DNA of 64,000 nucleotides from NCBI RefSeq assembly GCF_003202035.1, contig NZ_QJKC01000003.1, positions 1 through 64,000 on the forward strand. The letters run 5' to 3'. A model generated the notes under the pieces. It searched no databases, was not told the DNA's origin, and saw only the letters and a list, made by a program, of their open reading frames with translations. The DNA is from Aquitalea magnusonii. Lineage in GTDB: Bacteria > Pseudomonadota > Gammaproteobacteria > Burkholderiales > Chromobacteriaceae. Of this stretch, positions 4,343 through 42,095 are shown piece after piece. Both the position numbers and the translations under genes were made by a program. Each line of letters opens with the position of its first letter. The stretch's first letter is position 1.

Positions 4343-5247
4343 AACATTTTCTCTACCTGAACTGGCAAAGCGCTCGCCAGGCGCTGGTCAAGATCCTGCG
4401 CCAACCCTTTGGCAGCCTGCTGACCCTGCTGATGCTGTCCATCGCACTGGCCCTGCCCTTGTCGCTTTACCTGACCGTGAGCAGCATCCAGGAATGGGCG
4501 GGCCGGCTCACCGCCACGCCACAGATCACCCTGTTCATGGAGCAATCGGCCGAAGAAGCCGACCTTGCCGCCGTCTCCAGCACGCTGACCAAGCATCCGC
4601 GCATCCAGAGTTACAGCTTTGTCGGCAAAAAGCAGGCACTGTCCGACCTGGAAAAGCGCAACGGCTTGCCGGGACTGAGTGACGGCCTGACCGACAATCC
4701 GCTGCCGGACGCCTTCGTCGTTACGCCCAAGACGCTGGAACCGCACGAGCTGGAAATGCTGCAAAAAGAATTGTCCGGCCTGCCCATGGTGGAAACCGCG
4801 CAATTCGATGCCCGCTGGGCCAAACGCCTGTATGGCATGGTGGAAATGGGCAGACAGCTGACCTGGTTTCTTGGCGCTGCGCTGGGCATCGCCCTGGTAC
4901 TGGTCACCCACAATGCGGTGCGCATGCAGATTCTGGCGCGTCGTGATGAAATCGAAGTGGCCAAGCTGATTGGCGCACCGGACAGCTTTATCCGCCGTCC
5001 TTTCATGTACCACGCCATGTGGCAGGGCCTGCTGGCCGGCCTGGCAGCCTGGGGGCTGACCAGCTGGCTGGTGATGACGGCGAACCCGGCCATTCACGAG
5101 TTTGCCCAGCTTTATAACGAAGCCGTACAACTGCGTGGCCTCAGCCCTGTCGAGTTGCTGGTCGTACTGGCCATTTCCTCCCTGCTGGCGATGCTGGGTG
5201 CGCGACTGGCCTCCGATCATCATCTGCGACAGATTCAACCTCGTTAA
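4339..5247 (+). CDS. ftsX: Cell division protein FtsX
   Basis: This 302-residue membrane protein is the permease-like partner of FtsE. It has one N-terminal membrane segment (about residues 22-45), a periplasmic domain of about 120 residues that contacts hydrolase activators, and a C-terminal block of three membrane segments typical of the FtsX/MacB family. Length fits the family. It is translationally coupled to ftsE. An 11-bp inverted repeat (5269-5299) follows it. Confidence 0.96.
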   Translation: MKHFLYLNWQSARQALVKILRQPFGSLLTLLMLSIALALPLSLYLTVSSIQEWAGRLTATPQITLFMEQSAEEADLAAVSSTLTKHPRIQSYSFVGKKQALSDLEKRNGLPGLSDGLTDNPLPDAFVVTPKTLEPHELEMLQKELSGLPMVETAQFDARWAKRLYGMVEMGRQLTWFLGAALGIALVLVTHNAVRMQILARRDEIEVAKLIGAPDSFIRRPFMYHAMWQGLLAGLAAWGLTSWLVMTANPAIHEFAQLYNEAVQLRGLSPVELLVVLAISSLLAMLGARLASDHHLRQIQPR

Positions 5248-5268
5248 CAATCATTCTCTTTCACATTT

Positions 5269-5299
5269 GGCTGAATGTCGCTTATGGTGACATTCAGCC
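5269..5299. repeat. Inverted repeat after ftsX
   Basis: Arms of 11 bases (5269-5279 and 5289-5299, GGCTGAATGTC and its complement) surround a nine-base loop. There is no T run on either side, so it is a weak terminator at best. It could instead be an mRNA 3' end stabiliser or a protein-binding site upstream of rpoH. Confidence 0.5.
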
Positions 5300-5342: not shown

Positions 5343-5357
5343 CTATCAGTCTGATAG
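5343..5357. repeat. Small palindrome upstream of the rpoH promoter
   Basis: CTATCA-gtc-TGATAG is a perfect 6-3-6 inverted repeat lying just upstream of the probable -35 element (TTGACG, 5367-5372) of rpoH. It has the size of an operator, but no regulator can be named. Confidence 0.35.
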
Positions 5358-5388
5358 GAAAAATCATTGACGTTGGAACCTTTGCTTG

Positions 5389-5415
5389 CTAGCACTCTCA
5401 ATATACGAGTGCTAA
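5389..5415 (+). promoter_or_regulatory. CIRCE element (HrcA operator) before rpoH
   Basis: CTAGCACTC and GAGTGCTAA are separated by exactly nine bases, matching the CIRCE consensus at 17 of 18 arm positions. CIRCE is the binding site of the heat-shock repressor HrcA. A TTGACG at 5367-5372 lies 17 bases before the TAGCAC of the first arm, so repressor binding would cover the -10 region. Confidence 0.85.
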
Positions 5416-5439
5416 CATAGCACTACCCAAGGAGGTAGT
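5408..5439 (+). promoter_or_regulatory. Overlapping hairpins covering the rpoH Shine-Dalgarno
   Basis: A third CIRCE-type half-site TAGCACT (5418-5424) can pair with AGTGCTA (5408-5414) across a three-base loop. Overlapping it, ACTACC (5422-5427) can pair with GGTAGT (5434-5439), which holds half of the Shine-Dalgarno AAGGAGGT (5429-5436). The two pairings share bases 5422-5424 and exclude each other. Regulatory function is inference. Confidence 0.5.
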
Positions 5440-5446
5440 TACACTG

Positions 5447-6310
5447 ATGACCACAACATTTGCCTTGCCCGTTCCGTCGTCCAGCGGCAGCCTGGAGCAA
5501 TACATCCAGGCGGTGAACAGTGTTCCCATGCTGACCCCCGAACAGGAAACCGAGCTGGCCACCCGCTTCCAGCAAGACAATGATCTGGAAGCCGCTCGCC
5601 AGATGGTGCTGTCACACCTGCGTGTTGTCGTATCGATTTCACGCGGCTATGCCGGCTACGGCCTGCAACAGGCCGACCTGATCCAGGAAGGCAATATCGG
5701 CCTGATGAAAGCGGTCAAACGCTTCGAACCGGGCCGTGGCGTACGGCTGTTCTCCTTTGCCGTGCACTGGATCAAGGCTGAAATTCACGAATTCATCCTG
5801 CGCAACTGGCGTCTGGTGCGTATTGCCACCACCAAGCCGCAGCGCAAGCTGTTTTTCAATCTGCGCAGCATGAAAAGCAGTTTTTCGGCACTAAGCGAAA
5901 ATGAAGCCCGGCAGATCGCCGAAGACCTCGGCGTCAAGCCGGAAGAAGTGCGCGAAATGGAAACGCGCATGAGCGGGCAGGATATCGCGCTGATTGCCGA
6001 CGATGGCGACGATGAAGGATTCGCCCCCATCGACTGGCTGGCCGATGCCCATCACGAACCGACCCATGCCCTGGAACGCAAAGCCTTCGATCATCTGCAA
6101 ACCGAAGGCATCGAATACGCACTGGCGTCGCTGGATGCCCGCAGCCGTCGCATTGTCGAAGCACGCTGGCTGGCTGACGATGGTGGAGCAACCCTGCACG
6201 AACTCGCCGCCGAGTTTGGCGTTTCCGCCGAGCGCATCCGCCAGATCGAAGCCAAGGCATTGAGCAAGATGAAGACTGCGCTGAGCGAAGGTGTGGTCAT
6301 CGACAATTGA
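5447..6310 (+). CDS. rpoH: RNA polymerase heat-shock sigma factor (sigma-32)
   Basis: RpoH directs RNA polymerase to heat-shock promoters. The 287-residue protein has region 2 (DLIQEGNIGLMKAVKRFEP, then FSFAVHWIKAEIHEFILRNW), the RpoH box QRKLFFNLR that distinguishes sigma-32 from other group 3 sigmas, and region 4 with the helix-turn-helix ending AERIRQIEAKALSKMK. Start at 5447 has a strong AAGGAGGT ten bases upstream. Its leader carries a CIRCE element, suggesting HrcA control of sigma-32 itself, and additional inverted repeats that could mask the ribosome site. Confidence 0.97.
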   Translation: MTTTFALPVPSSSGSLEQYIQAVNSVPMLTPEQETELATRFQQDNDLEAARQMVLSHLRVVVSISRGYAGYGLQQADLIQEGNIGLMKAVKRFEPGRGVRLFSFAVHWIKAEIHEFILRNWRLVRIATTKPQRKLFFNLRSMKSSFSALSENEARQIAEDLGVKPEEVREMETRMSGQDIALIADDGDDEGFAPIDWLADAHHEPTHALERKAFDHLQTEGIEYALASLDARSRRIVEARWLADDGGATLHELAAEFGVSAERIRQIEAKALSKMKTALSEGVVIDN

Positions 6311-17725: not shown

Positions 17726-17819
17726 GTGCCGTTGCCGTAAAGCCGAATGGTGCGATCCCGCCATCTTACCACTGCGCTATACTGGCCGCTGGCCGACGCA
17801 CATTGCGCGGCCTTGCTAC

Positions 17820-17966
17820 GTCTTCAGGGCGGGGTGCAACTCCCCACCGGCGGTATGGCCTGCACACTGGCAGGCCGAGCCCGCGAGCGCCTTTTTCCGA
17901 TGAAAGAGGGTCAGCAGATCTGGTGCGATGCCAGAGCCGACGGTGATAGTCCGGATGAAAGAAGAT
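17820..17966 (+). promoter_or_regulatory. FMN riboswitch (RFN element) for ribB
   Basis: The conserved RFN blocks are all present in order: TTCAGGGCGGGGTG, CTCCCCACCGGCGGT, AGCCCGCGAGCGC, GGTCAGCAGATCTGGTG, CCAGAGCCGACGGT and ATAGTCCGGATGAAAGAAG. The closing helix pairs TCTTC (17821-17825) with GAAGA (17961-17965). FMN binding lowers ribB expression in known cases. Confidence 0.96.
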
Positions 17967-18107
17967 GACAGCAGCTGCAGTCTGGCCAGCCCGGACTGCT
18001 GTCGACCTGTCCGGCGGTGCTGCGGGCGGTGCGGTCCATCCTGGATGATGGCCGGCCCCCGCATGGCTCGCCACGCTGGCACCACCGCCGTGGTGCTGGC
18101 GGCTTTT
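17967..18107 (+). promoter_or_regulatory. Expression platform of the FMN riboswitch
   Basis: GACAGCAG (17967-17974) pairs with CTGCTGTC (17996-18003). Further on, GCACCAC-cgcc-GTGGTGC (18079-18096), flanked by CGCCA and TGGCG, is followed by CTTTT (18103-18107) and looks like an imperfect intrinsic terminator. Together they suggest transcriptional control in the 185-base stretch before ribB. This is inference from folding by eye. Confidence 0.45.
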
Positions 18108-41554: not shown

Positions 41555-41630
41555 TGGTGGGTTGTGAGTGGCTCGAACACTCGACCTACGGATTAAGAGT
41601 CCGCTGCTCTACCAACTGAGCTAACAACCC
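41555..41630 (-). tRNA. tRNA-Lys (anticodon CTT), copy 3
   Basis: A 76-base cloverleaf with encoded CCA; acceptor GGGTTGT, anticodon loop CTCTTAA. It is the last gene of the array. Confidence 0.95.
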
Positions 41631-41639
41631 GCAAAGCGG

Positions 41640-41715
41640 TGGTGGGTCGGGCGAGATTCGAACTCGCGACCAACGGATTAAAAGTCCGCTGCTCTACCGG
41701 CTGAGCTACCGACCC
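41640..41715 (-). tRNA. tRNA-Lys (anticodon TTT), copy 3
   Basis: A 76-base cloverleaf with encoded CCA; acceptor GGGTCGG, anticodon loop CTTTTAA. It is identical to the other two TTT copies. Confidence 0.95.
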
Positions 41716-41743
41716 GATCCTGCAATGAGTGACAACGACAAAC

Positions 41744-41819
41744 TGGTGGGTTGTGAGTGGCTCGAACACTCGACCTACGGATTAAGAGTCCGCTGCTCTA
41801 CCAACTGAGCTAACAACCC
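41744..41819 (-). tRNA. tRNA-Lys (anticodon CTT), copy 2
   Basis: Identical to copy 3 of the CTT tRNA, 189 bases further on. Confidence 0.95.
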
Positions 41820-41829
41820 GCTAAAGCGG

Positions 41830-41905
41830 TGGTGGGTCGGGCGAGATTCGAACTCGCGACCAACGGATTAAAAGTCCGCTGCTCTACCGGCTGAGCTACC
41901 GACCC
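41830..41905 (-). tRNA. tRNA-Lys (anticodon TTT), copy 2
   Basis: Identical to the other TTT copies, with encoded CCA. Confidence 0.95.
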
Positions 41906-41936
41906 GTGTCTTGCCTGATGGCAAAACCGGAAAAAC

Positions 41937-42012
41937 TGGTGGGTTGTGAGTGGCTCGAACACTCGACCTACGGATTAAGAGTCCGCTGCTCTACCAACTG
42001 AGCTAACAACCC
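41937..42012 (-). tRNA. tRNA-Lys (anticodon CTT), copy 1
   Basis: Identical to the other CTT copies, with encoded CCA. Confidence 0.95.
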
Positions 42013-42019
42013 GAAACGG

Positions 42020-42095
42020 TGGTGGGTCGGGCGAGATTCGAACTCGCGACCAACGGATTAAAAGTCCGCTGCTCTACCGGCTGAGCTACCGACCC
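42020..42095 (-). tRNA. tRNA-Lys (anticodon TTT), copy 1
   Basis: Identical to the other TTT copies. It is the first tRNA transcribed, about nine bases after the expected start. Confidence 0.95.

Follow-up and report, generated by a model that had tools for sequence, protein, structure and literature searches.

The leader of rpoH in Aquitalea magnusonii carries three copies of one half-site in a row, which raises the question whether the synthesis of sigma-32 is decided on the DNA by a repressor, on the mRNA by competing hairpins, or by both through the same bases. In the window, by which we mean the whole stretch of 64,000 nucleotides that was analysed, ftsE, ftsX and rpoH are all transcribed in one direction. 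The ORF at 5447–6310 is RpoH (TIGR02392: 403.6 bits against a cut-off of 323.1) and its best relative among the named loci is the one from Chromobacterium sinusclupearum with 87% identity. Between the end of ftsX at 5247 and the rpoH ATG at 5447 lie, in this order, a hairpin (5269–5299), a dyad, an A-rich tract with CATTGACG, the motif GGAACCT, a CIRCE sequence, a third half-site and the Shine-Dalgarno (SD) sequence. A preliminary description of the locus had placed the half-sites TAGCACT, AGTGCTA and TAGCACT at 5390–5396, 5408–5414 and 5418–5424, and the short motifs ACTACC and GGTAGT at 5422–5427 and 5434–5439, and direct reading finds all five at these positions. It had proposed that arms 1 and 2 form an HrcA operator and that in the RNA the pairing of arm 1 with 2, or of arm 2 with 3, decides whether a further hairpin hides the SD sequence, with temperature acting on this choice. 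The features of the region are the following.

5343..5357, no strand assigned: dyad CTATCAG-T-CTGATAG (family form CTATCG-N3-CGATAG), a candidate DNA element 31 nt before CIRCE
5375..5381, plus strand: predicted sigma-E -35 element GGAACCT, based on the conservation of GAAC and on GGAACTC at the like site before rpoE
5389..5415, no strand assigned: CIRCE, predicted HrcA operator, CTAGCACTC-N9-GAGTGCTAA, 17 of 18 consensus positions
5398..5402, plus strand: predicted sigma-E -10 element TCAAT, formed by bases 1–5 of the CIRCE spacer, at 16-nt spacing from GGAACCT
5408..5410, plus strand: predicted sigma-E transcription start, placed by spacing to about +/-2 nt
5410..5418, plus strand: predicted housekeeping extended -10 element TGCTAACAT (TGN-TAANAT), the right CIRCE arm plus CAT
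5418..5424, plus strand: third half-site TAGCACT, exact in 21 of 61 family genomes
5422..5427, plus strand: 5' arm ACTACC of the SD hairpin, pairing with 5434–5439
5429..5436, plus strand: Shine-Dalgarno sequence AAGGAGGT, read directly
5434..5439, plus strand: 3' arm GGTAGT of the SD hairpin, covering the last three SD bases
5447..6310, plus strand: rpoH, sigma-32, 287 aa (NCBIfam TIGR02392, E 4.7e-121)

We favour the reading that the rpoH leader is a transcriptional switch on the DNA, in which a sigma-E promoter and an extended -10 element would be built into and across CIRCE so that HrcA represses rpoH directly (probability about 0.77). As a likely operator lies on top of a likely rpoH promoter, rpoH is probably switched on and off at the level of the DNA. 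Two collections of sequences were used to examine this. The family set comprises 61 genomes in 10 genera (g1–g10) including the own genome (G000), with the own genus g1 represented by 10 genomes, g2 by 19 and g7 by 6. The named set consists of the 80 best named RpoH loci, of which the 75 with CIRCE were used for the promoter counts; it contains one family locus (L001), two loci of one MAG (L011 and L022) and several loci labelled just as Proteobacteria bacterium.

The operator proposed for arms 1 and 2 is confirmed as an HrcA-type sequence. It is one mismatch off the inverted repeat TTAGCACTC-N9-GAGTGCTAA, and the genome possesses an hrcA gene (PF01628 at G000:C6:84032-84691, E 8.8e-63). CIRCE is present at rpoH in all 61 family genomes with 1–3 mismatches of 18 positions, and in 60 of them it lies 57–65 nt before the aligned rpoH start. 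In the remaining genome, G044, it is found 92 nt before the aligned start and 58 nt before an ATG that matches the relatives and sits 34 nt before the aligned start; as 34 is no multiple of 3 the assembly may hold an indel there, and the G044 leader was cut at the relative-matching ATG for the leader and stem counts. Among the 80 best named loci, 75 have CIRCE within 420 nt upstream of the rpoH start and the five loci without it belong, by title, to Snodgrassella (two), Stenoxybacter, Neisseria and Nitrosovibrio. The own genome contains two exact matches to the 25-nt CIRCE core, one at rpoH and one at a groES-like gene, and three more matches with 3 mismatches, the same number that a reversed control pattern gives. 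With up to two mismatches allowed a CIRCE match is found in 61/61 family genomes, in 51 of them at exactly two places. CIRCE at rpoH exceeds chance.

The distribution of the repressor was compared with that of its operator. HrcA was found in 60 of the 61 family genomes, split into two pieces in G044 and G045, and the one genome lacking it is 61% complete. Our presence and absence calls for Neisseria and C. violaceum agree with the tables of PMC3135505, which give one HrcA for C. violaceum and none for two Neisseria. The profile search returned no HrcA match in the E. coli control genome or in four Neisseriaceae genomes without rpoH CIRCE, one of them a 1.6-Mb single-cell genome, and a match in each of four comparison genomes with rpoH CIRCE. 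In Nitrosovibrio (L039) HrcA is present and the rpoH CIRCE is absent.

Sigma-E (RpoE-type) promoters consist of a GGAAC-type -35 element, a spacer of about 16 nt and a -10 element starting with TC, and the sequence GGAACCT-N16-TCAAT scores 11/12 for such a promoter. In the 45 nt upstream of CIRCE, GAAC is found in 56/61 family genomes, where 500 shuffles give a mean of 9.5 and a maximum of 19, and in 56/75 named loci, where shuffles give a mean of 12.6 and a maximum of 24. A score of at least 9/12 with the -10 element at CIRCE offset +7 to +10 is reached by 57 of the 61 family genomes, the shuffle null covering GAAC alone and not the full 12-point score; G023, G035, G036 and G044 score lower yet keep CIRCE. 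The CIRCE spacer begins with TC at 44/61 family rpoH sites versus 0/15 groES sites. RpoE itself lies above the TIGR02939 cut-off in 60/61 family genomes including the own one, the missing genome being 84% complete, and among the five of 61 genomes examined for it the form GGAACTC-N16-TCTA precedes rpoE in the own genome, G004, G016 and G045 and is weaker in G031. Scanning the 10 genus genomes with the bare pattern GGAACYT-N16-TCNAT matched rpoH in 10/10 genomes and gave 21 matches overall versus 22 for the reversed control. As the bare pattern is as frequent as its control, the call of a sigma-E promoter rests on its conservation and fixed place. In many Burkholderia-type loci GAAC is located 23–26 nt before CIRCE instead of 9–12, so the exact overlap of promoter and CIRCE is not universal and a promoter there would end about where CIRCE starts. 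The two Bordetella loci are L041, with GAAC 23 nt before CIRCE, and L036, with none within 36 nt. Just upstream of the putative sigma-E -35 element, after the A-rich tract, ATTGAC (5366–5371) is conserved in the majority of g1 and g2 genomes and might serve as an upstream promoter element or as another -35 element. The combination of TTGACG (5367–5372) as -35 with TAGCAC (5390) as -10 element was also considered and rejected as weak (3/6).

A second promoter-like element spans the other end of the operator. The right arm GAGTGCTAA followed by NAT yields TGC-TAANAT, which meets the TGN-TANNNT of the sigma-70 extended -10 element. NAT stands directly 3' of CIRCE at 61/61 family and 69/75 named rpoH sites and at 0/15 groES sites. 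Thus a spacer beginning with TC and a following NAT mark the rpoH CIRCE, as both are absent from all 15 groES sites. By the usual spacing, a transcript driven by TAACAT would start at about 5425. The consensus sigma-70 scan, which requires a -35 element, did not list the element at 5410–5418; its single site lies at 5260–5288 (shuffle mean 0.4).

The second CIRCE place allows a comparison of layouts. In all 15 genomes examined (loci L082, L116–L119, L124, L126, L127, L130, L135 and L139–L143) a GroES-like ORF beginning with MAIRPLHDRV, which we take to be the GroES start, follows downstream, and at all 15 loci CTTGAAA...CCCTAYYA, presumably a sigma-32 type promoter, directly abuts the operator upstream (both judged by eye). 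The groES leader layout differs from that of rpoH. As the only other near-exact CIRCE of the own genome precedes this groES-like gene, HrcA may gate sigma-32 and a chaperonin target together. In the model that we propose, HrcA sitting on CIRCE would cover the sigma-E -10 element, the predicted start and the second -10 element and would thereby block rpoH transcription. GroE is known to activate HrcA and to be titrated by unfolded protein in other systems with HrcA; such titration would here make HrcA let go and sigma-32 would be made. HrcA would thus repress rpoH and groES, sigma-32 would activate groES and GroE would activate HrcA, which amounts to a coherent feed-forward loop with the action of GroE on HrcA as feedback. 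HrcA would limit how far envelope stress, signalled by sigma-E, can act on sigma-32. If this holds true, sigma-32 synthesis in the family would be decided at transcription by a chaperonin-sensing repressor on a sigma-E promoter, and perhaps likewise in many HrcA-containing Betaproteobacteria, where the promoter would be shifted. One operator would then join cytoplasmic (GroE/HrcA) and envelope (sigma-E) stress, and as no gene of the own genome other than rpoH and groES carries a near-exact CIRCE, the loop formed by HrcA, sigma-32 and GroE would be a small one, with feed-forward and feedback. In E. coli the rpoH mRNA acts as a thermosensor by pairing its start region with the coding sequence, and the control of rpoH in the family would be unlike it.

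The RNA elements of the leader depend in part on the third half-site, which is found in 9/10 g1 and 12/19 g2 genomes and in none of the other 8 genera. Its occurrence by chance has a P of about 0.0016 (either orientation, 20 nt of random sequence of the same composition). It was also considered as part of a second HrcA operator, a reading that was rejected on geometry and conservation: arms 2 and 3 (5408–5424) are 3 nt apart and face the opposite way from CIRCE, and the third half-site is poorly conserved. Folding predicts both hairpins of the preliminary description at 37 °C, a 2-3 hairpin of 7 bp with a 3-nt loop (-6.8 kcal/mol) and an SD hairpin of 6 bp with a 6-nt loop (-6.2 kcal/mol). The stem of the latter covers only the GGT of the SD sequence and AAGGA stays in the loop. 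Rfam at gathering thresholds gave no match at the rpoH leader.

That the same bases serve as DNA operator and as RNA switch, with 1-2 pairing permitting the SD hairpin, 2-3 pairing opening the SD sequence and temperature deciding between them, appears very unlikely to us beyond its operator part. The exclusive pairing is seen in folds of read-through RNA, where 1-2 pairs with p about 1.0 and 2-3 does not form. At 37 °C the inner SD stem then amounts to 0.82–0.95 in the three lengths folded from 5250 and to 0.77–0.89 in two of the lengths folded from 5367, the shortest fold from 5367 giving 0.38. No terminator match was found, and read-through from ftsX is possible. Yet the promoter-like elements place the starts elsewhere. 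A start inside CIRCE, which the preliminary description had foreseen, is what the sigma-E promoter would give at 5408–5410, excluding arm 1 from the RNA, and the putative start at about 5425 would lie after 5424, an outcome named there as speaking against the proposal, and would exclude arms 2 and 3. Since both predicted starts lie after arm 1, the main transcripts are unlikely to contain a 1-2 versus 2-3 switch. The 2-3 hairpin dominates in RNA starting at 5408 (0.80–1.0) but not at 5410 (0.24–0.45). In all transcripts folded, GGT keeps a pairing of at least 86% between 20 and 45 °C and shows no clear melting, as the coding sequence can pair with it when the SD hairpin does not. On heating from 20 to 45 °C the unpaired fraction of AAGGA in RNA from 5408 rises from 0.21 to 0.43 in the shortest fold (end 5470) and from 0.47 to 0.60 in the middle-length fold, but goes from 0.86 to 0.83, without opening, in the longest (end 5560). 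The competition of the arms is hence real on paper, and a clear heat-opened SD sequence is not predicted by the folds. Compensatory changes in the 2-3 stem are absent from the 16 aligned leaders and could not easily arise, because the 5' arm of this stem is fixed as operator, and with arm 3 kept in 21/61 genomes only, we rejected the RNA switch as the main mechanism. A related possibility is that the choice of start site sets rpoH translation. In sigma-E RNA (5408–5409) a 5' hairpin of arm 2 and the third half-site would block the SD hairpin, whereas ftsX read-through RNA would carry the whole CIRCE, fold 1-2 and form the SD hairpin, so that envelope stress would yield a better translated rpoH mRNA than read-through gives. 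We regard this, too, as quite improbable, and it would be confined to g1 and g2, where the third half-site is retained.

A simpler role for the RNA would be that the short SD hairpin alone tunes rpoH translation independently of CIRCE; in some members of the family it might act as a weak brake that is always on. This is possible but we consider it rather unlikely. A stem of at least 5 bp is found in 36/61 family genomes from 7 of 10 genera and in g6, g9 and one g7 genome the loop is longer by a 3-nt insertion without loss of the stem, but the stem has at most 4 bp in g3, g5, g10 and 5/6 g7 genomes. Shuffles of the left flank produce at least 6 bp in 4% and at least 5 bp in 17% of cases, so the hairpin is unremarkable in a single genome. 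The compensatory changes expected between ACTACC and GGTAGT were found once among 16 leaders, as a double change from C-G to U-A in G037, while several other pairs are broken. The covariation score is reached by 1/500 shuffles, but the double-change count is reached by 59/500 and slid registers of the stem score similar or higher. Moreover, the alignment covers 16 of the 30 distinct leaders. The other 14 come from g3, g5, g10 and three of six g7 genomes, and as these have stems of at most 4 bp the test flatters the SD stem. AAGGA stays in the loop, and we regard the SD hairpin as no more than a minor translational element of some lineages. Within the DNA switch itself the role of TAANAT may be disputed: it might be no promoter, with the conserved AT serving the binding of HrcA or another protein and sigma-E alone driving rpoH. 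This we hold to be a real though less probable alternative. It is favoured by several relatives in which the SD sequence begins 6–9 nt after TAANAT, in a few of them just 6 nt, which would be tight and leave almost no leader for a working -10 element. On the other hand the AT is absent from all 15 groES CIRCE sites, where the same HrcA would be expected to bind, the motif TGN-TAANAT makes a good extended -10 element, and the SD sequence is never closer than 6 nt in the leaders counted, namely 28 distinct family leaders and those 45 of the 75 named leaders whose CIRCE lies no more than 90 nt from the aligned start. The SD sequence was located as the longest match, which in G054 and G060 gave an AGGT that probably does not represent the SD sequence. 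A minimum of 6 nt is as expected if transcripts begin about 6–7 nt after TAANAT. Finally, CIRCE at rpoH might be a relic without regulatory effect, in line with the use of C. violaceum rpoH as a qPCR reference gene in PMC9131926. We find this scarcely credible, as the arms are well kept in every family genome and in all but five of the named loci, and CIRCE is missing in the four Neisseriaceae loci whose genomes give no HrcA match.

The DNA switch that we prefer combines parts known from other bacteria. In Bacillus subtilis CIRCE acts both as DNA operator and as mRNA element. The same bases would here belong to the operator and to the mRNA 5' end, with the difference that the whole CIRCE is transcribed in B. 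subtilis and arm 1 probably lies outside the RNA in our case. Permina and Gelfand, cited in PMC545781, reportedly described the CIRCE/sigma-32 regulons of beta-, gamma- and epsilon-proteobacteria and may already list a CIRCE at rpoH. In Geobacter sulfurreducens TTAGCACTC-N9-GAGTGCTAA has been predicted by comparison at -51 of rpoH (PMC545781, Table 8), so that an HrcA operator upstream of rpoH is shared. This species is a Deltaproteobacterium with CIRCE also at hrcA-grpE-dnaKJ, and an overlap with sigma-E is not described in the part of PMC545781 considered here. SigE of Bordetella bronchiseptica transcribes from the promoter of rpoH (fam) in vitro, an example of an RpoE-type sigma factor acting on a betaproteobacterial rpoH, and CIRCE is not mentioned in the part of PMC3490749 considered. 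The same source names the sigma-E promoter P3 of E. coli rpoH, which is alike in this respect but comes from a species whose control genome has no HrcA match. What is already known in the literature covered is the rpoH CIRCE (predicted, G. sulfurreducens) and sigma-E on rpoH (E. coli P3; Bordetella in vitro). HrcA control of a betaproteobacterial rpoH, the superposition of CIRCE and a sigma-E -10 element, the conserved NAT and an HrcA regulon of two targets were not found described in that literature, with most subscription journals lying outside the search.

Two further conserved elements lie upstream of the predicted promoter. The dyad scores at least 9/12 in 54/61 family genomes versus 2.6% of shuffled upstream regions, a generous control because the motif was derived from the same sequences. 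In 53 family genomes it lies 30–32 nt before CIRCE, and G058 has its best match elsewhere. A scan of the genus finds it at rpoH in 10/10 genomes with 3 other matches, each in one genome. Among the named loci, 15 (one of the family) reach a score of at least 9 at scattered distances, which makes the dyad a feature of the family. With its CTAT-N7-ATAG geometry it is similar to LysR-type sites. The hairpin that directly follows ftsX has 11 bp, a 9-nt loop and no T-run, and its loop and stem are partly invariant. Aligned over 7 of the 10 g1 genomes (G002 and G005 are like G001 here, and G009 is too divergent for alignment by eye), it shows 9 double-change cells (0/500 shuffles) in 4 pairs (93/500 shuffles), a covariation clearer than that of the SD stem, and it is possibly a 3'-end element between ftsX and rpoH. 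Elsewhere in the window we noticed an FMN riboswitch at 17816–17970 (109.5 bits) and six minus-strand tRNA genes at 41558–42095, whose scores alternate between 71.7 and 77.6 three times and which look like one tRNA gene pair repeated.
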